Positions 4,353 to 27,969 of a stretch of DNA of 27,969 bases are shown here, in pieces; within the stretch, counting starts at the first letter, position 1; each line of letters opens with the position of its first letter. Both the position numbers and the translations under genes were made by a program. The notes below the pieces were generated by a model that was given only the letters and a program-made list of their open reading frames with translations, ran no database searches and had not been told where the DNA came from. Source of the DNA: a virus; the IMG/VR virus record IMGVR_UViG_3300025000_000352, positions 1 through 27,969 of that record, one strand, 5' to 3'.

Positions 4353-7300
4353 TTATTGCACCGTACCTGTAACGTCAAAATATCTTTTCAAGATCACCTC
4401 TCGTTGCTGCTGCAACTGTCCAAGCCTTTCCCGAACATTTGTTGTCTGGTCAATCTTTTTCAGCTTATTAATTACTGCCTGGTTCCGATTGAGAGCACTC
4501 TGAAAATTTTCATGCAACTTCATTTGCTTAAAGCCATCCAGGTTTGAATTCAAGAAAGTGCGCTTGTCTTCAGAATTTTCAAGCTGCTTCTTGAATACAT
4601 CTACTTCCTTACTGACCTTACCAAACTCTTGTTCATTGCTAGACTTTTTGTAATCCTCTCCTCTGCCGTAATGCCAATAATAAATCTTACCACCAATCGG
4701 GATAGACTCTACAATTCTTGAGTGATCAAAATCTATTGTATCTCCCGTAATGTATGCTCCATACAATTGGTTAAGGTCCTTACTGATGGAGTTTACAAAT
4801 CTGAATGGCGGCAAAATCTGCCCCATCAATCCAGATCCTAGACCTTCCCTAGTAGTCTGCATCCTTACAAACTTTGATGCTCCGCCCATGGTTAAGAAGT
4901 TTTCAATCACGTGATCTTCAAACTTAGTTTCTTTCCCAAGCAGCAAATCTTTAAGTTCATCCGCGCCTGCATTAGCCAGTGTAAGTAAACTCACCAGCTT
5001 GATCATATTACCAATTCCTTCAATAACCTGATCCCGTTCGCCACTCTTAATTTTGTGCCAAGCTTCATTTCTGAAAACATCAAATTGCTTGAGTGTGTAT
5101 GTCTTGAGCATATAAAACACTCGGCCATTTCCACTCTTGAGATATTGTTCTGACATTTCAGAAAGCGCTACAGGTTGAAAATCCAACAACCGATGGTATA
5201 ATAACATCTTTACGTTGTCTGTTGGATTGTTTGCGAGCAAATCATTTATTACACTCTCAGATTGTGTTCCAAAGATCGGCTTGATCTGCTTCAACAATGT
5301 CTGTCGCCCATCCGCTATGCTGGCCATAGTCTTGTAGTTGCTAAACGCATTGTTAATTAATGTTTCTTTTCCTATTGAATCAATGCGCTCAAGTTGCACT
5401 TTTTTGAATACCCAACTTACTGCATTCCCCAACGTAGTTCCGTCTGCAAACTCCTGAGCGATCCTCTCAATTCCTAAGTCTTCCTTAGTTATTTCAGACT
5501 TCTTAGTTATGGCTTTACCAACATTCTTAATCGTATCAGCTAGTCCACGTGGTGTCCATACTTTACCTACATACATCGCCCAAGCCAAATCTCCAATCTG
5601 AGTCAGTGCAGATATTGGTGATCCCATTACGTCTATGTATGACATATTTTTGTAGGCATTAACTATTCCTGTAGCTCCATGCTCGTGGAATCTTGCATCA
5701 AGAATATCCCTAACTACTTTTTCATCATCTGCCTGGATTCGCCCAGACATTCGTAGATCATTAATATAAGTGCCAATATTCTCAGTATAGTCACGCTGAA
5801 GTTTGTACTTATCTAATTCTTGTTCAATCCTAATTAGGTCGCCAGAAACATCTTCTATGCGTGCAGCATTGTTGGATTTTTCATACTCTGTAAGCATTAC
5901 CTGCTTTCGTTTCTTCTCAGCTTTCAGAGTTGCTATTCTTTCTGGAACCTTACCAAAGAATTTCCGTGCTTCTATTTTCTTAGTCATACTATAGATGTAT
6001 TGCATCAATGCTGCATCACTATCCATGTAGAACTTATTTAATTCTGGTGGAACAGTTTCATATTGCCTAGCTTGAATATTGCCTGGACCACCAATACCGA
6101 GGTTCCTCCCCAGGATTGTGTTGCTTGCAATATCTGCTGCCTGTTCAGGATATTCAATTTCAAACTTTTCTACAGTCATACCCAGTTTGTCTGCATAAAC
6201 TTTGATTGCATCAGTAATAACTGGTCGTTGAGAAATTCCTTTGGTTGCCTGCAAGAAGCCTTCCTGATCTTTAATTATGCGAGGCCAGTATTCTTCTATG
6301 AAGCCAACGTCGTAGCCAACATCAATTGCATCCTGTCTAATCTGATCTAGAACTGACCGCAGCTTTTCTTGATCAGCGGTCATGTTATATTTTGCTGCCA
6401 GTTCTTTTATCTTAACTTCGTCTGAGTTTCTCCTCGATGCATCCCAAATAAACTTGTCTTGTGGACTCATTTGTTTAGTCTTTTCCAGCAATGGATGTGC
6501 AATTCGTAAGGCAGTTACAATCTTTTGAGCAGTCCAAAAGTCGAGGTTTCTAATCTCTGCTCTGAGCATAGGATCTACATTTTTTAACCTGGTTGAAATC
6601 GATCCCAATCCCTTGTCGATAAGTTGCTTGATTTCATGCCCGCGCATACGAAGAGTCTGGCCGATTGTACGGACCAAACTATTTCGTTCAGTGAACATTT
6701 GATGATAAACATCATCGCTAATTTTCTGAACTGGAGTTTCACGAACCTCAAACATAGGCATACCTTCACGAAGTGCCTTAGATTTCATACGATTCGTAAT
6801 TGGAATAGAAAGCTGTTGTGTAGTATTATTATCTTCTCTAATACTAAAAGTCTTATCAGGATTCTTTTTACTAAAATGATCTAAATCTTCTTCAGCTTCT
6901 TTTAATGTATCAAATCCAAGAAAATCTTCTCCATTTGCAAGAAGAGTATATGAAATTTTCTTCTCACCAATATTAACTACTTCAACTCTTGCATTCCCCC
7001 ACTTGTTCTTATTGAATTCTGCATTAAAAGTATTCGGGAGTATTTTATCATAAAAAGCTTTCATACCTTCGCCGCCAACTTGAAGATCAAGACCTGAATA
7101 TTCTCCTCGTACCCAAGGTTGATTGATAATTTTATTAGTTAAATCCTGCCCAACTATATTAGGTAATTCTTCTTTTTGTATATCCTGTCTATCAACTATT
7201 CTTTGTCCATCTTTATAACCAAATATATTAACTGTACCGTCTGAATTCGTAAATGCTTCTATTTTATCAAAACTTTTACTTAATCCATATCTATCTGCCT

Positions 7301-10300
7301 GCTGCTGTCCGGTAGTCCATGCAATCTTATCAAAACCATTCTCCGCAGCATACCTGACCATTCGTTTCATGGCAAGCAAGGACCACTGAGTAGAGTTCTT
7401 GAATGGTGCATTGGGAACCTGGCCTTGCATTCCTTTAAGAGAATCTAATTCATTTAATCTCTCTTGCTGTTCAGGTGTTCTTACAGCTTCTGGGAGAGAT
7501 TCTAAATTATACCATTCTTGACGTTCATCCTGAGTTAAAGGTTTTCCTTGATAACCCTGCTTCTTCCCTTCTTGATGCCAATCACTTTGAATCTCTTCAA
7601 GGAAAAGAACTTTATTTCCCTCCGCATCAGTTCGTTCATTAAACCTGATATGGGCTAAGATATTCTTTTCATCCCAATGATTTGATTGATAATTATTCTT
7701 TGTAAATTCATTAGCTTTTTTATCTAAACTATCTAATTTTGCATTATCTTCTTTTGTTAATTTCTTTTCAAGTTCAAAATAATCTTTTGTTCCATATTTC
7801 TCTTCCATTTTTTGCCAGAGTTTTTTATATTCTTCATTCCAAATATTTTGTTTCTCAGGTAATGTGAGTAATATCTCTTTATAGTTCTTTCCGCCTATAA
7901 GTTGATATCCTGAATATTTAGCTTCATCTAAAACTTCAGGCATGTTATTATTTGCTTCATTAAATATATTTTTAACTTCATTACTTACTTGAAGTTTATT
8001 AATATTATCACTATTAATAATTAAACCATTAGAAGAACTTAATACTAATTCTCCATCTAAGAATTTAGCCGTATAATTATAAGGACTTAATTTTTCATCT
8101 AATTCACCTAAAAAGCCATACAAAATATCATTATCAACTTCACCTTTCACAACTTCTTCAAGCTGAACATTATTCTCCTTCACAAACTTCAACAAGTCTG
8201 CCTGAGTAACTTTTCCTTCCTGCTTGTCAAGCCAATCATTCACACCAACCCAATCAAGTTCATCTTGCTTAATACCTGGAAAGTTCTTAATCATTCCTTT
8301 CCACTGATCAGGTGTTGCTTGCTTCTGCTGAAATCCACTAACTGCATTCTCAAGGGCTGAATACCATTGCTTTGCAGTAGCTTCAGCCTGAGGAACATTA
8401 ACTTGAACAGTTTCTCCATTAACTTTCCGCTCATAAATTTTTCCGCTTTCTACTTCACGAGCCAAGCCAGAAACAGTCTGCTTACCAAAACTTAGCATCT
8501 GCTGGAAGAAGTCCATTACTCGTTGGATCACTTTACCGAAAGCAGTGTTGCGATAATCAGCTCGATTGACCATGATTTGAGCAAACATGTTCGCACGATT
8601 CTCAACCATTCGCTGCTTTGGGTCTTTATGAGTACTGAGAGCAAAATCAAGCTTATTAAGTTTGCGAAGTTTATTAAACTCACGATTCAATGAGCTATCA
8701 TCTGCTTCTGTAACTATGCCAAGATTATCAAGTACGTGCTTATTCTCATGCCAAAGAGTCTTATTGTCTGCAAAGTTCTGGTCTAGGAGAATTTCATTCC
8801 CTACTGTGATACCAAGGATTTTTCCATTCTTTGACATCTGTCCAGTTTCAATTGCTAACTTAACAAATCCTTGACCAGCATTTTGAATACTATTGATTAT
8901 TACGCCTTGACCATTCTTGAACTTAATTGATATTATTCCATCAGGAGATTGTGTTATTTCTTGTCCAGGAAAGGCTTTCTTAATGTCGTCAAGATTAACT
9001 TTGCCTAATGCTTCTTGATTTTCGTTTACTTGAAACTGTGGAGCACCTGCAACTTGTTGTTCATTTGTGAACGAATTCTGCAAACCTCCTGGCAAGTTTC
9101 TAGGAATTTCTGTTTGAACTGCTTGTGCATTTGACTGACGAATATCGCCAAGACTTTCAGCAATTTGACGAAACCTTATCTGCCGTTTATTCTGCTCAGC
9201 TAAAGACGGAACAACATTTTGTTTTGCTTCACCTTGTACCTTAGCTTCCTGCTGAACATCTTTTTCAATTTCAGCAAGTTGTGTCTCAAAGAACTTCTTC
9301 CGCATAAATGCTTCCGTTCCAGGAGTCATTTTTTCATTACGAAGATTAAGTTCTTTTTTAACCTCTTCCCAATAATCTTCTATAACAGCTTTTTCTCTTT
9401 CAGTAAATTTCTGTGTTAAAAATACTTCAGCAGATTCCTGAGCATTCTTAACACCAAGTTGTTCGAACATTTGATTGTAAAGTTTCTGCCTTATAACCGG
9501 ATCACTCTCTTGAGTAATCGAAGACATTACTTTTTGAAGTTCTTGCTTTCGTTGGTTAGCAATCGCGTCTTCACCCTGAGTAGCAAAGACTTCAGCAGAT
9601 TCAGCAGCGTCTTTAACTCCAGGCTGCATGAACATTTTCTCATACAGTGTTTGCCTAGCCTGTGGATCATGCTCAACTACTATAGATTCAAGAACACTGT
9701 TAAGTCGTTCCTGATCTTTAGCTTTAACAAGTTGATCAAACTGACTAAGGTCTGCGTTAGCAATAGTTTCTGCAGATTCACTTGCGTCTCGTTCAAAAGT
9801 CTGAAACAATCCATCATAGACTTTCTGCAACTCTTGTTTCTTTTGCTCATTCTGAGTGTTTGCAATTTGAGTTGAAAGCCTATCCAGGATATCTTGCTGT
9901 TCAGTAGATTTCTCACCAAAGACTTGTGCTGACTCAGTTGCGTCTTTATTAACTCCACCGAGCCAAAGGCTATTGTAGAAGTTCTCTTTCTCCTGACGAA
10001 TCTCATCAGCCTTTTTTGGATCACTGAATTCAGAAGTCTGATTAGTTTTCTGCTGAAGCTGTCGATCAAGAAGAGTATTTTTCTCCTTCTTCAGATTAAA
10101 AATCCTGTCAGCAATTGATGCCTTTTTATCAGGGTCAGTTTCATCCTTATATTGCTTAAGAGCTATTTCTTCTCTCTTATTAATTATATCAAGATCATCA
10201 TTAATTTTCTGAGCATCAGCAATTCTCTTCTCAGCTAATTTATTTTCAATTTCTTTTGCTTGCTTCTCTTCAGGAGAAAGAGCTTCATATTCCTTCTTAA

Positions 10301-11510
10301 CCAGTTCTTCTTTCTTCTGAATTCCTGAATTAATTCGATCTAGAAGGCTTTGATTATTTTTATTATCCTCAATAGTCTTTCTAATCAATTCAGCCGGATC
10401 AATATTTTCTTTTCTTGCTTTTGCTTCAAGTTTATCAAGATCATTAATAAGTTCTTGGTTTGAATTAATGTCAGTGGTTAACTTCTGGATGCTCTTACCA
10501 AGTTCGTCTTCTTTCAGATTGAGAATATTTGCTGCCTGTCTGTCAAGCTCTAACTCTTGTTCAGTCTTTTCAGCTGGCTTATTTACTCCTGGAAGTAAAT
10601 TTGCTCCAGCACCCATTACTCCACCAAGAATAATAGCTTGTGCAGCTCCTTCAGGAACTCCTTCCAGCAAAGGCTTATCAAGAGCTGCATTAGTAAATAT
10701 TGTTTCTTGAACAGTTTGTGGCAATTCCTCAAATACACCTTCAGTTATACCACCCCCAACAATAGATTTCACAACACCTTTAAATCCTTCTTTCTTAGCA
10801 GGATTTAAACCAGAAACTACCATCGTATCTATATCAGCAAAACCAAGTTTTTTAGCTAATGATCCACCGACGATACCAAATGCTGATGTGCCTAATCCTG
10901 AAGCTACTGCAAGTGCAGATTGTTCAGGTGTCAAAAGATCATCAGGTGTTTCATTTCTTATTTGCTCTGCAGTTTGTCCAGCAGATATTGCACCTTCACC
11001 AACTGATCCAGCAGCAATAGCAGATCCAGTTTTACCCAACGCAGTAACAGCCTTTGGTAATAATTTGCTACTAAGAGCAAGCGCACCACGTCCCAACACG
11101 CCACCAGCAGCAACTGATGGCAATGTTTCAACAATACCATGAGCAATAGTGCTTGGATTTTCTAACATTGCTTGGGCTGTATCAACAAAGCCTTTTGCAG
11201 CATCAACCTTTTTATTTGCTTCTTGTTGAGCAAGAGAATATTCTTCAGAAAGATCTGCCTGCCATTCTTCTGGTTTTATTCCAATATACTCAAGGCCACG
11301 ACCAACTCTACCACCAGTTGGAATGTCAGCAAGCCCTACGATTCCTTGACCTGCACCAATAACACCTTTAGCAAGAGATATACCAGTGTCTTTTAATGTA
11401 GAGCCTAAAGTACGTTCTGGAGCAGGAGCATTAATTTCTTCTGTATCATCAAAAAAACTTTTTGCTACTGGCGAAGTAGTTTCTTCTGTATCATCAAAAA
11501 ATCCAGCCAT
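4353..11510 (-). CDS. Giant polyvalent, probably ejected, virion protein with metallopeptidase-like domain
   Basis: The 2385-residue protein is a mosaic of domains. Residues 1-30 carry FFDDTEE twice. About 120-310 is glycine/alanine-rich with several hydrophobic stretches that could insert in membranes. About 310-480 is a charged coiled coil. Residues 526-697 hold four repeats ending in ESAEVF-like sequence. HENKH at 921-925 is an HExxH zinc-peptidase motif in a setting (LWHENKHVLD) like the metallopeptidase domains of phage polyvalent proteins. About 1270-1580 contains EEIQSDWHQ (from 1305) and GGEGMKAFYDKILP (near 1479), a module common in such proteins. About 1850-2300 is a long C-terminal region with a hydrophobic stretch near 2160-2190. 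The family is thought to enter the host with the DNA. The ribosome binding site is weak (AGGT). No polymerase or tape-measure features are seen. Confidence 0.82.
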   Translation of the reverse strand: MAGFFDDTEETTSPVAKSFFDDTEEINAPAPERTLGSTLKDTGISLAKGVIGAGQGIVGLADIPTGGRVGRGLEYIGIKPEEWQADLSEEYSLAQQEANKKVDAAKGFVDTAQAMLENPSTIAHGIVETLPSVAAGGVLGRGALALSSKLLPKAVTALGKTGSAIAAGSVGEGAISAGQTAEQIRNETPDDLLTPEQSALAVASGLGTSAFGIVGGSLAKKLGFADIDTMVVSGLNPAKKEGFKGVVKSIVGGGITEGVFEELPQTVQETIFTNAALDKPLLEGVPEGAAQAIILGGVMGAGANLLPGVNKPAEKTEQELELDRQAANILNLKEDELGKSIQKLTTDINSNQELINDLDKLEAKARKENIDPAELIRKTIEDNKNNQSLLDRINSGIQKKEELVKKEYEALSPEEKQAKEIENKLAEKRIADAQKINDDLDIINKREEIALKQYKDETDPDKKASIADRIFNLKKEKNTLLDRQLQQKTNQTSEFSDPKKADEIRQEKENFYNSLWLGGVNKDATESAQVFGEKSTEQQDILDRLSTQIANTQNEQKKQELQKVYDGLFQTFERDASESAETIANADLSQFDQLVKAKDQERLNSVLESIVVEHDPQARQTLYEKMFMQPGVKDAAESAEVFATQGEDAIANQRKQELQKVMSSITQESDPVIRQKLYNQMFEQLGVKNAQESAEVFLTQKFTEREKAVIEDYWEEVKKELNLRNEKMTPGTEAFMRKKFFETQLAEIEKDVQQEAKVQGEAKQNVVPSLAEQNKRQIRFRQIAESLGDIRQSNAQAVQTEIPRNLPGGLQNSFTNEQQVAGAPQFQVNENQEALGKVNLDDIKKAFPGQEITQSPDGIISIKFKNGQGVIINSIQNAGQGFVKLAIETGQMSKNGKILGITVGNEILLDQNFADNKTLWHENKHVLDNLGIVTEADDSSLNREFNKLRKLNKLDFALSTHKDPKQRMVENRANMFAQIMVNRADYRNTAFGKVIQRVMDFFQQMLSFGKQTVSGLAREVESGKIYERKVNGETVQVNVPQAEATAKQWYSALENAVSGFQQKQATPDQWKGMIKNFPGIKQDELDWVGVNDWLDKQEGKVTQADLLKFVKENNVQLEEVVKGEVDNDILYGFLGELDEKLSPYNYTAKFLDGELVLSSSNGLIINSDNINKLQVSNEVKNIFNEANNNMPEVLDEAKYSGYQLIGGKNYKEILLTLPEKQNIWNEEYKKLWQKMEEKYGTKDYFELEKKLTKEDNAKLDSLDKKANEFTKNNYQSNHWDEKNILAHIRFNERTDAEGNKVLFLEEIQSDWHQEGKKQGYQGKPLTQDERQEWYNLESLPEAVRTPEQQERLNELDSLKGMQGQVPNAPFKNSTQWSLLAMKRMVRYAAENGFDKIAWTTGQQQADRYGLSKSFDKIEAFTNSDGTVNIFGYKDGQRIVDRQDIQKEELPNIVGQDLTNKIINQPWVRGEYSGLDLQVGGEGMKAFYDKILPNTFNAEFNKNKWGNARVEVVNIGEKKISYTLLANGEDFLGFDTLKEAEEDLDHFSKKNPDKTFSIREDNNTTQQLSIPITNRMKSKALREGMPMFEVRETPVQKISDDVYHQMFTERNSLVRTIGQTLRMRGHEIKQLIDKGLGSISTRLKNVDPMLRAEIRNLDFWTAQKIVTALRIAHPLLEKTKQMSPQDKFIWDASRRNSDEVKIKELAAKYNMTADQEKLRSVLDQIRQDAIDVGYDVGFIEEYWPRIIKDQEGFLQATKGISQRPVITDAIKVYADKLGMTVEKFEIEYPEQAADIASNTILGRNLGIGGPGNIQARQYETVPPELNKFYMDSDAALMQYIYSMTKKIEARKFFGKVPERIATLKAEKKRKQVMLTEYEKSNNAARIEDVSGDLIRIEQELDKYKLQRDYTENIGTYINDLRMSGRIQADDEKVVRDILDARFHEHGATGIVNAYKNMSYIDVMGSPISALTQIGDLAWAMYVGKVWTPRGLADTIKNVGKAITKKSEITKEDLGIERIAQEFADGTTLGNAVSWVFKKVQLERIDSIGKETLINNAFSNYKTMASIADGRQTLLKQIKPIFGTQSESVINDLLANNPTDNVKMLLYHRLLDFQPVALSEMSEQYLKSGNGRVFYMLKTYTLKQFDVFRNEAWHKIKSGERDQVIEGIGNMIKLVSLLTLANAGADELKDLLLGKETKFEDHVIENFLTMGGASKFVRMQTTREGLGSGLMGQILPPFRFVNSISKDLNQLYGAYITGDTIDFDHSRIVESIPIGGKIYYWHYGRGEDYKKSSNEQEFGKVSKEVDVFKKQLENSEDKRTFLNSNLDGFKQMKLHENFQSALNRNQAVINKLKKIDQTTNVRERLGQLQQQREVILKRYFDVTGTVQ
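6785..8165 (-). other. AT-rich module inside the giant protein gene
   Basis: Most of this stretch is visibly richer in A and T than the gene around it; the line 7981-8040 has 11 G/C in 60 bases by hand count. It encodes about residues 1115-1575, including the EEIQSDW and GGEGMKAFYDKILP motifs, so the composition change follows a protein module. A short normal-composition patch around 7300-7420 interrupts it. Boundaries are estimates by eye. Confidence 0.5.
9420..9935 (-). repeat. Four degenerate coding repeats (ESAEVF units)
   Basis: Residues 526-531 (ESAQVF), 578-583 (ESAETI), 637-642 (ESAEVF) and 692-697 (ESAEVF) of the giant protein close four repeat units spaced 52, 59 and 55 residues apart. 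The last two also share an upstream pattern LYxxMFxxxGVK and a preceding DPxxRQ. The DNA copies have diverged, so this is an old tandem duplication of an alpha-helical unit. Confidence 0.75.
11435..11501. repeat. 22-bp direct repeat encoding a duplicated FFDDTEE peptide
   Basis: The bases 11435-11456 and 11480-11501 are identical over 22 positions and lie exactly 45 bases (15 codons) apart. Both encode the acidic peptide FFDDTEE at residues 4-10 and 19-25 of the giant virion protein. Perfect identity points to a recent duplication or selection on the peptide. Confidence 0.85.
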
Positions 11511-17685: not shown

Positions 17686-20600
17686 TCATTCTCCCTTTGT
17701 TGCGATGTATGTAGATAGGCTGAGAGTCGCAACAACTGCACCAGCCGCTATAGCCTCTATTTCAGGTGTATCATGAACAGCAGTAATTTCATTTTGGCTG
17801 AAAATTGCTTCTATCTCATTATCTTGTAATGTCCCCATAATTGTCTCACTATTAAAGATTGCTTCTATTGTCGGAACATACAGAGTAGCTATATATGAAG
17901 TTTCCCCATAAGTAACAATCATTTCAGGGAAATAACATTCAACTCTAAGCGCTGAATAACCGTCAAGAAGCGTGAACAACTCTATCCTTGCAGCGTTCAT
18001 GATGGCAGTGTTCGTTAGTACATTAGTGACAAATGAAGTATCAATCGCAAATCCCCAACTAACCATTATTGTAGTTGATTCATCATCTATCCCTATGCTT
18101 TCAGCAATTACTCTAGACGCAGTATTGTAGACCGAAGTAATCTCTTCAACTGTTGATGTGTCTGCAAGAGAAACATAAAGTCCTCGCCATGCCAAGATAT
18201 CCTCTGATAGTGCCAAGGTCTCAATCAAGCTGTCTTCAGCTGACTTACTAGCATTCTGTCTCGTCCTGACTATTGCCCAGGCATATCCCATACCATATGC
18301 TGTTCGTTCGGAAGCTTGAACGTTCTCAACAAGCATAGTGTCATCAATTATTGATCCATATTCTTGAGACCCAACTCCTAACTCAGTTACTTCCAGATTA
18401 TCAGAACGACTATCTGTTTCGGTGTGGGACGAGGTACCACCTGGCGTTTCTTCTGCCACCAAGCTCTCTGCTCGTTCTGCTGCTTCCGGGTGTTCACTGA
18501 TACTGGCCTGGTCCTCTGTAGCAACCGCTTCCTCGCCTGATTCACTGCCCAAGGCAATCCACCCCTCGTCCTTTACCTTGAGGACCAGGGCCATCATATA
18601 GATGTAATCCTGCTCGGCCCCGTCGAAAGTGAGGGCGGCGATACTGCTCGTATGCCAAGGGACAACCCCTACCGTCGTCCTAATCGACCAGCCGTAAATA
18701 CTGTTGTACGCCCCGCCAGTTGTAAGGTTGGGTTGTCTACCTACATTGCACCTGATTTCCCCGTAACCTCCGCCGCCGGAGCCGTACTCGATGCCGACCA
18801 CCATGTCACCTTCGACAGTTGAAATGCCGGAGAGGGTAAGCGCTGTGGCGTTGGTTGCAACTTCATGGCTGACCACGCTGCGAAATGGATCTCCAGAAAC
18901 ATCGACGTTGATGAACTGGCAGATTTTGATAATATCGGCATATTGCTCGACCCCGCCGAAATTCGGATTCGGGAAGCTCCAGACGATATCTCCTGACTCT
19001 GGGTTTTTGAAATACGCCACCATCACATTGTATCCGGCTACGTTGGTGCTGATGAGATGCGTAAATGGTATCCCGTTCAAGGTCAGGGTAAAGTTGCCGT
19101 CTTGTATCCATGCCGGGGTAGAGAACAAGGTATGGTATGCGAAGATCAGCAGATCGGTATCGGCATGGATCGTAATAGCCCTGCCCCCGCTGGCAGTATT
19201 GGTGTAATCGTGGACCTGGTATGACCTGGAATCAGAGAACATTATCTCAGTCGGTATATCAACATAAGGGCCGTTGACCTGATCCACCGGCAAAGTGTAT
19301 GCAACATCCCTATCTACAGATACCGCCGAAGCCAGTTCATCGTAGACAGATTCCGTTATCTCCCAGACATTCCCAGTGTACGGCTCGCTGGTCACAATTC
19401 CGGTTGGGTCTGCTGTTATGGAAAGTGGTTCGGTTATTAAGGCGTTTGGATTCGCAGCCTGCCCCCACTTCCAGTCAGAATACTCAAGATATTCAAGCAT
19501 CTCGGCATTGATCCTACTCGGCTCTGTACCGCGATTCAGGGACAGGCTAATATCAACGTAAATCCGAGAGTCTGCCAAGGTAATTCGCGTAGTCTCGGTG
19601 TCTACCGGTTGTTTATATCCAATATCAAGGTACATCGACCCTTGATCTGGGCCAAGATGGGAAACGAGCGCTGTTTGTGCACCTCCATTTGTCACATCTG
19701 CAACGCTGGCTGGCTGGCAGAATGCACCAATGACCAGTCCGTAAGGATCGGAGGGAGACACATCCATGAAGGCGTCAACAAGGTAGTCATATTCTGAAAA
19801 ATCTATAGCAATATCCAAGAAAGGCTCACTGCCATCAATACCCTGCAAAAATACCACAGAGAAGAGATGGCCGGTCTCGTCCAACGCAGTGTCCACACCC
19901 CATGAAAAAACCTGCGCCCCCTCTGGTGGAAGATTCATCTTTGCACATACCAGGACACTCTTAGTATAAAGGTGAACGTCTGGTTGGTACACATATGCAG
20001 TGGAACAGTTTACCTGCGTCCGCACAACATGGTCGAACGCTTTTTCACCAATGGCTATAGTGTAATTGCCACTCTCGAAATAACTGGTCCCTGGCGGTGT
20101 TGCCCCGGGCACAAAGAAGTTCCAGCCTCCGCTATATTCCAGTGCCCAGAACACAAGTGCAAATGTCGCTCCAGTCGGAACTGTTATACTGGTGCTACCG
20201 GAAACCAGTGCGGTGTTCAAGGTAAAGACACTGCCAACCACGGCGGCCGGAAACTCATAAGGCCAGATGTTTTCGCTCGGCGCTGACTGCTCCTCATGTT
20301 CTACGGACGTGTCGTTGGTGGCGGTCTCACTTTCCGCGCAGGTCAGAGACTCATCGATAGTCCGATCATTAGAAGCGGCGACGATCCCCCCGGTCCATTC
20401 CTCTGCGGTAGCAACCGTCTCTATCAACCCGGCATCAGGAGCTTCACTGTCAGCAGAAACAACCGCGCTTACAGTCTCACCTTGGGTGCCACCTATGACC
20501 ATCCCCCCAGTCACCGATCCTTGCAGGACAACCGCCGCCAGAGCAGTATACCAATCAGAGTACACCGACACAGATGTAGGGTTAGCGGGCTTGTCAGCAG

Positions 20601-22707
20601 CCATCAGCGTTTCATTCGCATAGACAATCGCCCGTTCAGTCTGGCCGTCGAGATCGAAATCAATCCGCGTCGAGGAAAAGTCGTAACCTGTCACGGCAAT
20701 CCTCGCCAAAGCGACCGTCAGGCACAGCGCCTCAGCGTCGAGGCCGGTCAGGGAAAATGTCCCGTAATTATCTCCTGCGGATGCTTTGAAGTCCCGGATC
20801 GGGCTTGGCCCAGTGTCTCCGTAGAAAAGGACCATTATCTCATGAAGAAATACGTCGGTGCCATTGACTGCCCAGATTAAAGTCTGGCTACCACTCGGCG
20901 GGTTGGCGATGTAATGCACTCCGGCGGGCCTGTTATTCAAATCCCATGGATTTATCTGGCCGATGTACTCACTGTTCGCACTCCCAATGCTGAAAGTAGC
21001 CTCGCCTACCGACCATGCCGAACTACTAACCGCAGATTTAATTGCGATAAGGGCTACAGTGGCGCCGACCGGAACGGTAATTGCTGGGGTGCCGGAAGAC
21101 TCTCCACCGACAGACCCCCAAGTAAAAGGGGATGCCAGAAACAGCGGCAACTTTCCTTCGGATACCTGATCGGCAACCAACGCTCCCTCGGTGACGTCTC
21201 CAGACAGCGTTTGCAAAATCGTACCAGCCTGCGCCTGGTCAGCTCCCGCCTCTTCCGCCTGGGCGGCGTAAAAAATCGGACCTGGCTCACCGGCTCGAAG
21301 CACAACAGCAAGCAGCCCTGTATATACCGCAGTCGCTATAGAACAGACCCCGGCTAGAGAAGCTGTATGAGCGACGCGTTGGTAGTACAGCCCCCCCTTC
21401 GGCGCAACATTAGATGAAATGACCTGCGTTTGCCCATTGGTATCCATGGACCCGTCGGACCTGGTCGATGCCGCGCCTACCGTCAAAGCGCCGATTGCCG
21501 TTGTCAGGCCAGTAACCGATACTGTTTCAGACGTCCCACCGTTCGCTGCCGACCCCCAATCGATAAATGGATCGGCATGATCGACGTTGCGGAAGAAAAT
21601 GACACTTATATGATACCCGTAAGTGATATATGAACTGAGAATCCAAGATATGGTTTTACTGCCAGTTGACGGGTACTTAATATATCGTGCAGCAACATCT
21701 CCACTGTAGGCGTCCGTCTCAACCACGCGCCCTAGAAAGGAGGCATAAACTCCGTCAATAACGATATAATTGTATCCCGCCCCAAAATCGTCGTCAGTCG
21801 TCGTTTCCTCACACCCTGAGATAAAGATAAGGGCAAATTCCGCCTCACTTGGGACCGTGATCGTGGTACTGGAATTAGTCAGTGTGGTGGAGATAAGAAC
21901 CGGAGTCCCGACCATCTCAACACGTGGATCGGTGTTTTGCTCCTCAGATGGGACGACGGTTTCTTCTTCGTCTGAGAAAAAAGGAACACCGGCAACGGAT
22001 GCATCTGCCAAAGTCCCAGATGGTTCTGTAACAGAGTCTCCAAAAACAGTCGGCGGAACCAGGGCAATAGTGATGAACGCAGCTGTAGTAGTTGCTGTAC
22101 TAGTAACAGAAGTTACTCCAGTATCTCCTGCAACTACTTTGCTACCAGTATAAAGACCTAATCCGCCACCTGCTCCAGTATTTACAGTTTCATCAGCGCG
22201 TTTGGTCAGACTAGCAAGATTAGCATTTGATGCTGCCGTAAGAGATGTAGTTGAGTTAGCATCCCGATCCTGCCCAATGCATATCAGAATAAGACAATTT
22301 GGAATAGTAGTAGTTATCGCAGGACAAGACCAAGATGTGGATGCTGGAGTGTTAACACTTCCGGCTGTGATATTGATTGGACCTGCAGTATCTATACCTC
22401 TTAATAAGAACATCTGGCCAGCAGTGACGCTGCCAGAATCTGCAACCGAAACAGATGACTGTGAGCCTGATACTAATTTCCAAAATGCAGCAAGTCTAAT
22501 TCCACCTGCTGCCCCAGCCGTACCAGTACCTTGAGGACTATTTGTTACTTCAGCCCAACCGCTCGGAGTGGATATAACTTCATTCGCAGACGAAACCAAC
22601 AGAACAAGGATATCCCCATCAGCATAACCAGTTGGTACCGAAACTGAGATAGCTCCGGTGCCAGCTGTAAACGCGCCCTGATTGACGTATGTTGGAACTG
22701 CTCCCAC
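17686..22707 (-). CDS. Large modular adhesin- or fibre-like virion protein
   Basis: The 1673-residue protein starts at GTG 22707, with AAGGA five bases upstream. Residues 1-215 form a beta domain with the pattern YADGDILVLLVSS...TPSGWAEV common in phage tail proteins. Four related beta modules then begin near residues 272, 539, 836 and 1169, each with a lead-in like SxxITVPxxAxxALIxI. They are separated by acidic, alanine/serine-rich linkers (AEEAGADQAQ, AESETATNDT, SGEEAVATEDQ). Residues 1430-1673 are acidic helix followed by an isoleucine-rich C-terminus with repeats of the type EIEAIFSQNEI. No enzyme motif is visible. It probably binds host surface structures. The middle of the gene is GC-rich, unlike the ends. 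Confidence 0.65.
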   Translation of the reverse strand: MGAVPTYVNQGAFTAGTGAISVSVPTGYADGDILVLLVSSANEVISTPSGWAEVTNSPQGTGTAGAAGGIRLAAFWKLVSGSQSSVSVADSGSVTAGQMFLLRGIDTAGPINITAGSVNTPASTSWSCPAITTTIPNCLILICIGQDRDANSTTSLTAASNANLASLTKRADETVNTGAGGGLGLYTGSKVVAGDTGVTSVTSTATTTAAFITIALVPPTVFGDSVTEPSGTLADASVAGVPFFSDEEETVVPSEEQNTDPRVEMVGTPVLISTTLTNSSTTITVPSEAEFALIFISGCEETTTDDDFGAGYNYIVIDGVYASFLGRVVETDAYSGDVAARYIKYPSTGSKTISWILSSYITYGYHISVIFFRNVDHADPFIDWGSAANGGTSETVSVTGLTTAIGALTVGAASTRSDGSMDTNGQTQVISSNVAPKGGLYYQRVAHTASLAGVCSIATAVYTGLLAVVLRAGEPGPIFYAAQAEEAGADQAQAGTILQTLSGDVTEGALVADQVSEGKLPLFLASPFTWGSVGGESSGTPAITVPVGATVALIAIKSAVSSSAWSVGEATFSIGSANSEYIGQINPWDLNNRPAGVHYIANPPSGSQTLIWAVNGTDVFLHEIMVLFYGDTGPSPIRDFKASAGDNYGTFSLTGLDAEALCLTVALARIAVTGYDFSSTRIDFDLDGQTERAIVYANETLMAADKPANPTSVSVYSDWYTALAAVVLQGSVTGGMVIGGTQGETVSAVVSADSEAPDAGLIETVATAEEWTGGIVAASNDRTIDESLTCAESETATNDTSVEHEEQSAPSENIWPYEFPAAVVGSVFTLNTALVSGSTSITVPTGATFALVFWALEYSGGWNFFVPGATPPGTSYFESGNYTIAIGEKAFDHVVRTQVNCSTAYVYQPDVHLYTKSVLVCAKMNLPPEGAQVFSWGVDTALDETGHLFSVVFLQGIDGSEPFLDIAIDFSEYDYLVDAFMDVSPSDPYGLVIGAFCQPASVADVTNGGAQTALVSHLGPDQGSMYLDIGYKQPVDTETTRITLADSRIYVDISLSLNRGTEPSRINAEMLEYLEYSDWKWGQAANPNALITEPLSITADPTGIVTSEPYTGNVWEITESVYDELASAVSVDRDVAYTLPVDQVNGPYVDIPTEIMFSDSRSYQVHDYTNTASGGRAITIHADTDLLIFAYHTLFSTPAWIQDGNFTLTLNGIPFTHLISTNVAGYNVMVAYFKNPESGDIVWSFPNPNFGGVEQYADIIKICQFINVDVSGDPFRSVVSHEVATNATALTLSGISTVEGDMVVGIEYGSGGGGYGEIRCNVGRQPNLTTGGAYNSIYGWSIRTTVGVVPWHTSSIAALTFDGAEQDYIYMMALVLKVKDEGWIALGSESGEEAVATEDQASISEHPEAAERAESLVAEETPGGTSSHTETDSRSDNLEVTELGVGSQEYGSIIDDTMLVENVQASERTAYGMGYAWAIVRTRQNASKSAEDSLIETLALSEDILAWRGLYVSLADTSTVEEITSVYNTASRVIAESIGIDDESTTIMVSWGFAIDTSFVTNVLTNTAIMNAARIELFTLLDGYSALRVECYFPEMIVTYGETSYIATLYVPTIEAIFNSETIMGTLQDNEIEAIFSQNEITAVHDTPEIEAIAAGAVVATLSLSTYIATKGE
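18420..22080 (-). other. GC-rich block within the adhesin gene
   Basis: Base composition changes abruptly inside one continuous reading frame. By hand count the line 21181-21240 has 37 G/C in 60 bases, against 20 in 60 at 17821-17880. The change falls near 22,080 and 18,420, so about residues 210-1430 (all four beta modules and most linkers) are GC-rich, while both ends match the AT-rich genome. This looks like transfer of the receptor-binding core from another phage lineage. Confidence 0.8.
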
Positions 22708-24310: not shown

Positions 24311-24550
24311 TTAAAGATCATCTGATGTAATTGGAGTAGTTATAAAATTCTCTTCTGGTTCTGGCCTATGTACAGGAACACTTTGCTTCTCACCTAACGG
24401 TTTTGGATCTGTATATTGTGGATGCTTTTCTTCCCAACATGTATCAGCACAAACAAACAACTTATCCCAAGTCATCCTACATTCAGATGCATATCTTTGG
24501 AAGCCGCATTGATCACAGATTACTAAATAATCACCAGGTTTATATGACAT
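24311..24550 (-). CDS. Zinc-finger phage protein, 79 residues
   Basis: The sequence YKPGDYLVICDQCGFQRYAS has a CxxC at residues 12-15. A second cysteine pair (C34 and C38, FVCADTC) follows, forming a likely four-cysteine zinc site. The C-terminal half is proline-rich and unstructured. Small proteins of this layout occur next to head-completion genes in many phages and are usually called hypothetical. The ribosome binding site is weak, and this start is the only clear one. A 40-base gap with no clear element separates it from the SleB-like gene. Confidence 0.65.
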   Translation of the reverse strand: MSYKPGDYLVICDQCGFQRYASECRMTWDKLFVCADTCWEEKHPQYTDPKPLGEKQSVPVHRPEPEENFITTPITSDDL

Positions 24551-24590: not shown

Positions 24591-24992
24591 TCATCCTTCA
24601 CGGTAAAAACGATGCCCTTTGATCTCAACAATAAATTTCATACCTTTAACCCAGTATGGCGGTTGATGATTAGGCATACCCAATAAAGCGTAATAATGTG
24701 TTGCACCATAAAGTGTATCACCAGCTAGCCATTCATTGAGTCCTGCCTGAGCATTTTCCAATACCTTTGCTGCGGTGACAACATTTCTAATCCAAACAGA
24801 TGGATGATCTATACCTAAGTTAAAACAACTAAATTGCTTTCGTGACAACACAACATTTGACACTGGCCATCCATTCTTCTTAGCTCTATTGAGAATGACC
24901 TTTGCCACTGCTTTCTGCCCAGCAACTGACTCTCCTCTAGCCTCATGATAGATTGTCAAAGTTAGCCAAAACAAGGCTTGTGTTATATCCAT
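24591..24992 (-). CDS. SleB-type cell-wall hydrolase (endolysin)
   Basis: The 133-residue protein has the hallmark sequence IYHEARGES (E17 is the expected catalytic glutamate), then AGQKAVAKVILNR, QFSCF (53-57) and a C-terminal HYYALLG. This is the SleB / Hydrolase_2 family, which cuts peptidoglycan glycan strands. It is a single domain without a signal peptide (the N-terminal hydrophobic run is part of the fold), so it would need a holin or another export route. The ATG overlaps the stop of the papain-like gene by one base (TAATG). Lysis of the host at the end of infection is the likely role. Confidence 0.88.
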   Translation of the reverse strand: MDITQALFWLTLTIYHEARGESVAGQKAVAKVILNRAKKNGWPVSNVVLSRKQFSCFNLGIDHPSVWIRNVVTAAKVLENAQAGLNEWLAGDTLYGATHYYALLGMPNHQPPYWVKGMKFIVEIKGHRFYREG

Positions 24993-25717
24993 TAACTCAC
25001 CGCCTTCCTAGCAAATGCACATTCCCCACCGCGCTTCATAAACACTTCTGCAAAATCATCAAGATCCATCACCCAGTAACCGTTACGTAGTAAGTTCCAA
25101 TCTGTCCAGGAGTTTGGTCCCCCAATAATATTTTGATGAAGATTAATAAAAGTACCAGCAGTACAATGGCCACCAACTACTTCGCCACCAGGAGTACTTA
25201 ATCCATCCACTTCACGAGGATACATCATACCCTCAGTCCATTCTAGGCCAAGTATCGCTGAACCATAATAATCAATGCCACGAATAACTTCATCAACAGT
25301 CCGAGTTCGACAATACGACTCAATCAATCCTTCTTGTTTCGCAGTCTGCATCACTGCCGCAAGAGAAGTTCCATAACTAATTGGCTTTGATCCAGGTCGT
25401 TCAGAGCCAGGCCACTGATCATTATCTTGACACCTGAAATAAAATTCAAGTGCCCATTCATTACCAAGAGTTCTTATTCCAGGCTCATGTTCCATAAAAG
25501 CAGCAAAGCCAAATCCACCACAAGCACTCCATTTACTCTGATTAAGCAATGGTTCTTTGAATTTCTTTACTCGATATTTACTGATCAACTCTCGATATCG
25601 CAAATCAATACCATCATCAAGCGGTGGTACAGCAAGAAGATTTGGAGCAAGTGGATCAGGCTGAAAGATCAAACCACAACGAGGATCACGAGTTTCACTG
25701 CCATCTTTGAGTATCAT
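24992..25717 (-). CDS. Papain-like (C1 family) cysteine peptidase
   Basis: The 241-residue protein keeps the papain order. Q60 lies six positions before C66 in NQSKWSACGGFG, as Q19 does before C25 in papain. A helical segment YGTSLAAVMQTAKQEGLI follows (115-132). H184 lies in VGGHCTAG, and N202 in NSWTDWNLLRNGYW. All four catalytic residues are thus present. There is no signal peptide and no pro-region of normal size. It overlaps the membrane-protein gene by four bases and the SleB gene by one, so it belongs to the lysis block. It might cleave peptide crosslinks, process virion proteins or attack host proteins. Confidence 0.75.
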   Translation of the reverse strand: MILKDGSETRDPRCGLIFQPDPLAPNLLAVPPLDDGIDLRYRELISKYRVKKFKEPLLNQSKWSACGGFGFAAFMEHEPGIRTLGNEWALEFYFRCQDNDQWPGSERPGSKPISYGTSLAAVMQTAKQEGLIESYCRTRTVDEVIRGIDYYGSAILGLEWTEGMMYPREVDGLSTPGGEVVGGHCTAGTFINLHQNIIGGPNSWTDWNLLRNGYWVMDLDDFAEVFMKRGGECAFARKAVS

Positions 25718-26136
25718 CTCTTTGCCTTTCTTGGTTCATTTATCTTAGACTTAGTCTGTTCAAATTGCATATATGTCAAAGTTGTTATATTACCATTCAT
25801 ATCTGTGATTGCTCGGAGCAGCGCTTCATATCGTTCATCAGTTCTAGCCTGACCTTGAGCAAGTGCATCAACTTGCTTTGAGAGAGTCCTGATATCAGAT
25901 GACATAGCAGCAGCATTAGCAGTATATTGCATTCGCATATCATCTTTTATTTCCTTGGCATAAATATATGATCCAGCTACAAATGCTGTAATCAAGACTG
26001 CCCAGCCTGCTATTCCAGATTGCCATCTTTGAGAATTTTGTCTGCGCTCCACCTCGTCACCATGCACACCACATACACCAGTCTCAGCAAAATTACATTT
26101 CACTTCCTCATGATCTCCTATTTCATGCTCGGCCAT
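25714..26136 (-). CDS. Single-pass membrane protein with coiled coil (possible lysis accessory)
   Basis: Residues 1-40 are acidic then basic, with C14, C22 and H25 (CNFAETGVCGVH). A transmembrane segment spans about 42-60 (IAGWAVLITAFVAGSYIYA). Residues 62-125 are a charged helix with heptad-like spacing (SSDIRTLSKQVDALAQ). The tail is very basic (INEPRKAKR). The layout is compatible with a holin-like or inner-membrane spanin-like role beside the SleB and peptidase genes, but no family signature is seen. AAGGGG precedes ATG 26136. Confidence 0.6.
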   Translation of the reverse strand: MAEHEIGDHEEVKCNFAETGVCGVHGDEVERRQNSQRWQSGIAGWAVLITAFVAGSYIYAKEIKDDMRMQYTANAAAMSSDIRTLSKQVDALAQGQARTDERYEALLRAITDMNGNITTLTYMQFEQTKSKINEPRKAKR

Positions 26137-26151
26137 TCGATCCCCTTTTCG

Positions 26152-26691
26152 TTATGCCTCGTCTTGTACATTAGGAAAGTATTCTCCCTGGTAATGCCGT
26201 TCATCAGGTCGGTCTCGATACTTATCTCGTGCGATCTTCAGGCGTTGCAGCCGATCTATTACAGTAGGATTTGCAAATGGATTGAGATCTTCTTTTTTAT
26301 CACCTGCAAACCAATTGAAAAAAAGCACCCCCATGGTACTAACCGCTGAAAGATACAAGATCCCAGCTTTCATCAATGCTTTAATCATTTTCCAGGTTTC
26401 AAGATCAGATGCCAAGATCAAGTTAACAATATTAAGAAAGAACCTACCATTCGCACCCATGAATGAAGCAATTGTTTTCGCAGATACCGAAAATTCTACA
26501 TCATGACAAAGGCCCGCCGGAGCAATATTGACTCCTTGAATCATATCGGGAACAATTGCATCTCCCCAACCTTGGCCAGCACCACAAAATGTTGGCCACT
26601 GATCAAGCGGAAGATCATAAGGCCATGATGGAACAAGAAACTCAGGAACTGTTAAAGTTGCTCCATGACTGGTAATTTTGACGAAGTTCAT
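26152..26691 (-). CDS. Phospholipase A2-like phage protein
   Basis: Upstream in-frame codons exist, but ATG 26691 (MNFVKITS) overlaps the nuclease stop by four bases and has AAGGAAAAG upstream, giving 179 residues. The segment VPDMIQGVNIAPAGLCHDVEF has the His-Asp pair (H63, D64) in a setting like the A-x-x-HD helix of phospholipase A2-type folds. FMGANGRFFLNIVNLI then matches the second helix, where an Asp/Asn is expected. A hydrophobic helix follows at about 107-127. The C-terminal 40 residues are charged. Membrane lipid hydrolysis during lysis would fit its neighbours, but only one short motif supports it. Confidence 0.5.
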   Translation of the reverse strand: MNFVKITSHGATLTVPEFLVPSWPYDLPLDQWPTFCGAGQGWGDAIVPDMIQGVNIAPAGLCHDVEFSVSAKTIASFMGANGRFFLNIVNLILASDLETWKMIKALMKAGILYLSAVSTMGVLFFNWFAGDKKEDLNPFANPTVIDRLQRLKIARDKYRDRPDERHYQGEYFPNVQDEA

Positions 26692-27164
26692 TTCTTCTTT
26701 TCCTTCCTCCAAACCCAAGGCTGAACTGGTGCCGGACCAGACCATAATCCTACTCTATTACCAGCAGAAATACCTTGCAACTTTTCCCAAGCTTGACAAA
26801 ATGACTTCTTGCAATACTGCGGATAAACCCAAGCATAGCCAGCAAGCAAAAGTTGCTCTTGTACACATTGTGTTCCAAGCATTACAACAGCTACTGTTCG
26901 GCCATAACGATCATAATGTTTAACATCAACAGGCGCAACATCAACAACCTTACCCTTAATCATTACTTCAACAAAATCTTTAGATGCAAGACCAAATGCT
27001 TGTTTCTTTTCAGGAGAATCAATTCCATAAAGCCGAACAGTTGTTAGGCCAGTCTCATCAATTACCTTAATTGTATCACCATCAGTAACACTAACAACCG
27101 TAGCTGGTTTAGCATAAGCAGTTGATGCAATGATCAAAATGAAAAGGATTATAATTTGATACAT
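26688..27164 (-). CDS. Exported thermonuclease (staphylococcal nuclease family)
   Basis: Residues 1-18 (MYQIIILFILIIASTAYA) are a classic signal peptide with cleavage expected after AYA. The mature part has VTDGDTI (D28, D30), VRLYGIDSPE (R44, E52) and DRYGR (R89), matching the calcium-binding aspartates and the Arg-Glu-Arg catalytic triad of the SNase fold. Family length is normal. It should hydrolyse DNA or RNA in the periplasm or outside the cell. A phage-coded exported nuclease could clear released host DNA, limit competing phage DNA or support spread. The start overlaps the preceding gene by 16 bases. Confidence 0.88.
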   Translation of the reverse strand: MYQIIILFILIIASTAYAKPATVVSVTDGDTIKVIDETGLTTVRLYGIDSPEKKQAFGLASKDFVEVMIKGKVVDVAPVDVKHYDRYGRTVAVVMLGTQCVQEQLLLAGYAWVYPQYCKKSFCQAWEKLQGISAGNRVGLWSGPAPVQPWVWRKEKKK

Positions 27165-27365: not shown

Positions 27366-27449
27366 TCAATCACAATCGTCAGATGGATATCCACAAACTG
27401 GGCAAAACGAGCCTTTGTAACGGTGCCCACAATGGGAGCAAGTCACCAT
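27366..27449 (-). CDS. Zinc-ribbon microprotein, 27 residues
   Basis: ATG 27449 overlaps the stop of the upstream gene by seven bases, and AAGG lies about ten bases before it. The 27-residue product contains CSHCGH (C4, C7), FCPVCG (C16, C19) and a final C26, a compact four-cysteine zinc ribbon with knuckles of the CxxCG type. It ends at TGA 27368-27366, 28 bases before the next start. Coupling and the intact zinc pattern argue for a real gene; it would be missed by normal length cut-offs. A role in nucleic acid or protein binding is only inferred. Confidence 0.6.
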   Translation of the reverse strand: MVTCSHCGHRYKGSFCPVCGYPSDDCD

Positions 27450-27969
27450 TGCATCAATACCTTTTTGCTGCTGTTTCCATAAGGAGCATGTAAATATATT
27501 CCGCCATGATCAGTTCCTCGATCAGCATCACCTTTGCCGTTAGGGAGATTATTGCCAGGCTTATAAAGAAAACCGTCTTTATCAGCTCCGGAATCTCTCG
27601 CACAAGTATCTTCTCGATCACGGCAATTCTTGTTCGGATCTTTAACCACAAAAATCAGTCCATCTGAGAAAGTAAATTTTACTGGACCTGAGCCGAGAGA
27701 ATTTCCTCGTTTATTAATACGCCAGGCTTGTCGCCCACCATTTCGGACCCCATATGAATCATACTCTGCTTTATTAGTATAGTCTCCTGTCGGACTTATT
27801 GGATCTACTGTACTTCCGCTCTTGGCAGTATAAGTTATTCCATCAGCCATCTTGATTACAAAGCTCAGTGGTCTAGCATATTGATCACCAGACTTAGTCA
27901 GCAGAAAGACCGGTGCACCTTTGTAAGGAACTCCAAGTCTTGCAACTTCACCATTGACTGAAACGTAAG
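27443..27969 (-). CDS. Unidentified protein, C-terminal part (runs off the window)
   Basis: The frame is open from the right edge (partial codon at 27968-27969) to TGA 27443-27445, giving about 174 residues; the ATG at 27850 is internal, since coding continues upstream as ...VARLGVPYKGAPVFLLTK... without a stop. Residues after the internal methionine are rich in G, D, N and S and contain DKDGFLYKPGNNLPNGKGD, somewhat like a calcium-loop sequence. It ends in HAPYGNSSKKVLMQW. No family is recognised. It is the first gene of the operon visible here and overlaps the zinc-ribbon microgene. Confidence 0.55.
   Translation of the reverse strand, partial: YVSVNGEVARLGVPYKGAPVFLLTKSGDQYARPLSFVIKMADGITYTAKSGSTVDPISPTGDYTNKAEYDSYGVRNGGRQAWRINKRGNSLGSGPVKFTFSDGLIFVVKDPNKNCRDREDTCARDSGADKDGFLYKPGNNLPNGKGDADRGTDHGGIYLHAPYGNSSKKVLMQW

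Follow-up and report, generated by a model that had tools for sequence, protein, structure and literature searches.

Here we describe a five-gene block in a viral sequence that is well supported as a modular phage lysis cassette and that carries, besides its endolysin, a slot for phospholipase A2 (PLA2)-type proteins. The best explanation of the whole, which we rate as somewhat more probable than its negation, is that the cassette is modular and that its PLA2 slot serves to attack phospholipids of the host membranes, possibly those of the outer membrane. Within this explanation, the lipid-attacking step is less certain than the assignment of the block to lysis.

A conserved gene block with exchangeable slots

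The window, by which we mean the whole 27,969-nucleotide stretch analysed (positions 1-27,969 of IMG/VR record IMGVR_UViG_3300025000_000352), contains the cassette at 24591-27164 (Table 1). A preliminary description of this DNA had proposed a five-gene cassette, four of its genes joining by overlaps of 1-4 bases or a 15-base gap, and both the genes and their spacing were recovered: five ORFs, all on the minus strand and transcribed in the order SNase, PLA2-like, one-TM protein, papain-like and SleB, are joined by overlaps of 4 bp (SNase/PLA2-like), 4 bp (TM/papain-like) and 1 bp (papain-like/SleB), with a 15-bp gap between the PLA2-like and TM genes. The most likely start of the PLA2-like gene is 26691, since full-length relatives begin at a conserved MNFVK; the longest ORF begins at 26745. 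Tested pairs from the window's gene families give dN/dS values of 0.03-0.12 (NG86), indicating purifying selection, and the five ORFs are therefore real genes. The Cys-rich protein that follows the cassette is probably a boundary marker rather than a lysis gene; in GH108 cassettes its place is taken by a DksA/TraR zinc-finger protein (for example L040:8098-8307; L numbers denote individual loci). Elsewhere in the window, the minus strand carries an unusually large ORF of 2385 aa at 4353-11510, probably a virion protein, and another of 1673 aa at 17686-22707.

Table 1. Coordinates of the cassette genes and flanking features in the window.
Feature	Position	Strand	Properties and basis
C-terminal part of protein preceding cassette	27443..27967	-	relatives: about 230-260 aa, signal sequence frequent
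SNase-like protein, predicted to be exported	26688..27164	-	158 aa; N-terminal signal sequence (MYQIIILFILIIASTAYA)
PLA2-like protein	26152..26691	-	179 aa; alignments, AF2 model, Foldseek, VIA
TM_A140, membrane-protein slot	25714..26136	-	hydropathy; slot families A/B/C in relatives
Papain-like (C1A-type) cysteine peptidase	24992..25717	-	241 aa; no signal peptide; phrog_16701
SleB-type cell wall hydrolase	24591..24992	-	133 aa; no signal peptide; PF07486, phrog_938
Small Cys-rich zinc-finger-like protein, 3' of cassette	24311..24550	-	gene order in relatives

Scanning IMG/VR with the papain-like protein yielded 44 loci, 79-96% identical to the query. Most stem from a single cluster of related metagenomes (IMG ids 3300024999-3300025154) and a few have other origins, so that they are not independent. 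Every one of these contigs with enough flank shows SNase followed by the PLA2 slot, the TM slot, the papain-like gene, the endolysin slot and the zinc-finger protein, and a second scan with the PLA2-like alignment as query returned 42 loci in the same order. With this succession of genes conserved across the 44 related contigs as far as their flanks reach, the arrangement is not due to chance, and the objection that these genes might rarely be neighbours elsewhere falls away. The contents of the slots do change, with about a dozen distinct combinations among related cassettes. The papain-like gene is the most conserved of the group, in part a product of selection, the loci having been collected with it as query.

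The last slot gives the block its identity. Its occupant in the window, the SleB hydrolase, matches PF07486 (Hydrolase_2) in Pfam at 53.7 bits against a cut-off of 27 and phrog_938, an endolysin family, in PHROG; among relatives the slot holds SleB, GH24 (PF00959, 121 bits), GH108 (PF05838 plus PG_binding_3) or a lytic transglycosylase of the phrog_3108 type. When the homologue from L080 was used as query, distant relatives of this last protein in isolated phages proved to be annotated as lytic murein transglycosylase or endolysin. Because these are four unrelated types of muralytic enzyme exchanging in one place, we read the last slot as the endolysin slot and the block as a lysis cassette, as the preliminary description had suggested; the prediction that the SleB hydrolase is the endolysin is well supported. 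Fragments of a SleB gene lie upstream of the cassette in two loci whose endolysin slot holds another enzyme (L031:4717-4839 and L033:about 4718-4792), a possible trace of endolysin exchange.

The papain-like protein matches phrog_16701, 'peptidase', at 1.6e-17 in PHROG and has the Cys-His-Asn triad of the papain (C1A) family, with Cys66 and His184 in 15 of 15 sequences and Asn202 in at least 14 of 15. Its predicted structure, a model with a pLDDT of only 61, points the same way: all 50 VIA matches listed are papain-family cysteine proteases, nearly all of them cathepsins (Z 11.5-13.0). A Pfam search at E<=1 returned no profile for it, papain's included. The intact triad and cathepsin-like predicted fold uphold the earlier assignment. 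A homologue in Gordonia phage Lilbeanie lies between the lysins and the holin; those of Streptomyces phage Wakanda, XacN1 and GX15bay lie outside recognisable lysis cassettes.

At the other end of the block, the nuclease matches PF00565 (65.8 bits, Pfam) and phrog_452, an endonuclease family (PHROG), and a hydrophobic leader at residues 4-22 would direct its export. It occurs in most related cassettes and is absent from L047, L065, L067, L071 and L079, a distribution that does not support the 'debris-clearing' function once suggested for it. In L079 an HNH-nuclease-like ORF (5579-6004) occupies the SNase position, directly 5' of the PLA2-like gene, and the nuclease position may be another exchangeable slot.

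The PLA2-type slot

Two kinds of protein occur in the second slot: the PLA2-like family of the window and several DUF1353-type proteins, the latter in L031-L033, L030/L038 and L040/L043/L044. Of these DUF1353-type proteins, the ones in L040 and L043 match PF07087, and for the ones in L031 and L038 the only match is phrog_1158. Following the DUF1353 gene, a remnant of 25-28 codons from the 3' end of a PLA2-like gene persists in L044 (E about 1e-9) and in L040/L043 (5e-9 to 7e-9), which is the scar of an in-place replacement of PLA2-like by DUF1353. Sequence comparison gave no significant link between the two families: hhalign of the PLA2-like with the DUF1353 profile, both profiles being shallow, gave a non-significant probability of 0.3%, and Pfam at E<=1 gave no PF07087 match for the window protein. 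TtaP, a DUF1353 protein of Salmonella Typhi, has been verified experimentally as a phospholipase A2 whose catalytic residues are H70/D85 and D71 (PMC11525133).

DUF1353 genes are also associated with endolysins more generally. From a DUF1353 profile scan, the best 80 of 246 matched relatives were kept as loci, of which 57, from diverse viruses, were usable; all ORFs in these were scored using iterated HMMs that started from seven endolysin seeds. Endolysins were found among 10 of the 114 ORFs adjacent to DUF1353, against 4 of 554 others (57 of the best 80 loci; Fisher p=8e-6, odds ratio 13), at gene offset -1 in eight cases and +1 in two; the true share is higher, because the seven seeds miss other endolysin families. 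Examples include GH108-DUF1353 pairs in L117 and L145, GH24-DUF1353 in L107, transglycosylase-DUF1353 in L129, and M15 peptidases in L104 and L161. An apparent GH108-DUF1353 fusion in L176 proved to be an overlapping-frame artefact and was left out of the adjacent count. A PHROG scan of the neighbours found many endolysin families near DUF1353 and, among the families listed, none in the far set; lipoprotein or TM genes showed no significant enrichment beside it. As counter-examples, the DUF1353 genes of the large phages HTVC008M, Melnitz-3, Bakedbeans and Colwellia 9A have no annotated lysis neighbours. A search of the literature, mostly outside subscription journals, found no report of a DUF1353-endolysin association. 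The family phrog_1158, matched by the DUF1353-type proteins of L031, L038 and L040, is labelled 'tail assembly chaperone' in PHROG, and the same name appears in RefSeq (HTVC008M, Colwellia 9A); the present evidence together with the TtaP study (PMC11525133) suggests that this label is wrong and that these proteins are PLA2 instead.

The window's own PLA2-like protein is a more equivocal case. A GAGxGxGD glycine-rich loop and an HD motif (His63-Asp64, at 26505-26500) are invariant in its alignments, the latter with the catalytic-type His of PLA2 superfamily group XIV. The canonical dyad Asp of that group seems to be missing: its counterpart, as judged from sequence spacing and predicted helices rather than coordinates, would be Asn81, which is present in every sequence, relatives at 36-42% identity included. 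Asn87 is likewise invariant, and the helix holds no invariant Asp. When an AlphaFold2 model (pLDDT 79, pTM 0.77) was searched with Foldseek, the first PDB match was the fungal T. borchii PLA2 (4aup; probability 0.99, with a weak E of 0.21), and the first viral matches were two phage proteins that bear the name phospholipase A2 (also weak, E 0.015). VIA scored 4aup at Z 7.1 and another PLA2 at 5.9, a small margin over unrelated helical rows, with complex I subunits at 5.0-6.4; we judged the complex I matches to be helix-packing noise, and the predicted fold is by itself modest evidence for PLA2. The protein has no match in Pfam at E<=1, in PHROG or in a search of isolated phages, and sequence searches of the PDB using profiles of the papain-like, PLA2-like and DUF1353 families gave nothing significant. 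Against GTDB genomes the PLA2 profile found one distant match, in a Deltaproteobacteria MAG, too weak for naming a host. Distant PLA2-like genes lie near lysis genes in L080 (followed by a TM protein, then a transglycosylase) and L082 (GH24), and not evidently so in L081.

The PLA2 reading of the earlier description thus survives in part, favoured by the predicted fold and by the in-place exchange for DUF1353 and weakened by an Asn where the dyad Asp is expected; phospholipase activity of the window protein is plausible. Such a substitution may lower or abolish catalysis, and its persistence even in relatives at 36-42% identity is the strength of a rival explanation, that in the window family the slot has no catalytic function and its PLA2 fold serves lysis structurally or by binding membrane, catalysis being confined to the DUF1353 versions. 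We consider this possible but doubtful, since the glycine-rich loop and His63-Asp64 remain invariant, the gene is under purifying selection (dN/dS 0.04-0.12), and the slot has been taken over by a verified PLA2 family.

Membrane components and a model for lysis

According to its hydropathy, TM_A140 has one TM helix at about residues 42-60, followed by a long C-terminal tail that is possibly a coiled coil. Three one-TM families fill this slot in relatives: A140, with the helix in the middle, B117, with it near the C-terminus, and C165, with it N-terminal. None of the three has a known holin or spanin family among its Pfam or PHROG matches, A140 having only a weak Rz-like PHROG match (E=0.69), and B and C find no match in isolated phages. 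Most relatives examined also carry a lipoprotein gene (113-179 aa, GLLTSC-type lipobox) two to three genes upstream of SNase and directly upstream of the homologue of the protein that precedes the cassette, a site equivalent to one beyond the window's end; it is conserved with variable length (L003:5050-5436, L037:4923-5264). The lipoprotein is a possible o-spanin, and the one-TM protein would be a membrane component, holin-like or i-spanin-like. With a one-TM protein in every cassette and a lipoprotein gene upstream in most relatives examined, the earlier statement that no recognisable holin or standard spanin is present is not established.

These same genes allow a more conventional account, in which the block is an ordinary lysis cassette with holin, endolysin and a separated two-component spanin, the TM_A/B/C proteins being the i-spanin and the upstream lipoprotein the o-spanin. 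The PLA2-like, papain-like and SNase genes would then be passengers, acting for instance against host defences, superinfecting phages or host macromolecules. The lipoprotein, the topology and weak Rz-like match of TM_A140, and the occurrence of papain-like homologues outside lysis cassettes all agree with it. The i-spanin topology is lost, however, when TM_B117 fills the slot with its near-C-terminal helix, and this account leaves unexplained both the in-place exchange of PLA2-like for DUF1353 and the adjacency of DUF1353 to endolysins; we regard it as a credible minority view.

We instead favour a lipid-attacking role for the PLA2 slot, because a PLA2 fold, an in-place swap with the verified PLA2 family DUF1353, and the general association of DUF1353 with endolysins coincide. 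In the model we propose, the PLA2-like protein, the papain-like protease and the endolysin, all of them leaderless, would accumulate in the cytoplasm and reach the envelope once the one-TM protein opens the inner membrane. The endolysin would then cleave peptidoglycan, while the PLA2-slot protein would hydrolyse or disturb phospholipids of the inner or outer membrane and so perform or aid the outer-membrane disruption that is usually the task of spanins. The papain-like protease might cleave envelope proteins or wall peptides, and the exported nuclease, missing in some relatives, would be an accessory. Of the interpretation first offered for this DNA, a lysis system with PLA2-like and papain-like members is kept here, and debris clearing and the absence of holin and spanin are not. 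That the block is instead a cargo or virion module, its PLA2-like and papain-like proteins injected or virion-borne at infection and SleB a virion-associated entry lysin, is very unlikely: head and tail genes do adjoin it (with an SU10-like adaptor downstream) and many phages carry virion lysins, but its enzymes are small, leaderless and single-domain, classic endolysin families swap in one slot, and the genes overlap tightly with a TM gene.

Relation to known systems

The cassette resembles the lambda S-R-Rz/Rz1 type in its clustered, overlapping genes and its pairing of an endolysin with a small TM protein; it differs in that neither a holin nor a spanin has been identified within the block and in adding PLA2-like, papain-like and nuclease genes in a fixed order. 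The PLA2-like protein shares its predicted fold and an HD motif on paired helices with the group XIV secreted PLA2 of Tuber borchii (4AUP), from which it is set apart by Asn in place of the dyad Asp, lack of a secretion signal and extra C-terminal helices. Mycobacteriophage LysB, whose fold differs from the PLA2-like fold, is a comparable case of a lipid-layer enzyme serving as an extra lysis step. LysB is described as a mycolylarabinogalactan esterase (PMC5707550). Closer in concept is the putative patatin lytic cassette of Wolbachia phage WO, in which a phospholipase beside a holin-like protein has been proposed for lysis; that enzyme is patatin-like, the host has no detected peptidoglycan, and papain-like, SNase and SleB genes are lacking (PMC9203015). 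The disruptins, as in phiKT, and the spanins would serve the same end, disruption of the outer membrane, and are peptide or fusogenic proteins, unlike the PLA2 slot with its putative enzyme (PMC6139136, PMC12819732).

In the typhoid toxin islet of Salmonella, TtaP accompanies the muramidase TtsA, and DUF1353 thus occurs with a phage-type muramidase just as it does with GH108 in L040/L043 and L117/L145; prophage homologues of both TtaP and TtsA have been mentioned (PMC11525133). That islet is a secretion islet, unlike the cassette described here, and the window protein is not DUF1353 by sequence. Our findings nonetheless offer a possible origin and role for DUF1353, the verified PLA2 of the islet (PMC11525133).

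In a survey of 677 phages, 91 (~13%) had no recognisable spanin, and how these break the outer membrane was stated to be an open question (PMC6139136). A phospholipase-type gene beside endolysins, swapped with a verified PLA2 family, is a concrete candidate answer for such spanin-less lysis and suggests that some phages may enzymatically attack host membrane lipids during lysis. More tentatively, and with somewhat less than even confidence, we propose that PLA2-type enzymes, comprising DUF1353 and the HD...N family, may provide many environmental phages with an enzymatic outer-membrane-disruption step besides spanins and disruptins, in which case a phage lysis unit of this kind would be the ancestral source of the DUF1353 and muramidase genes found in the typhoid toxin islet.
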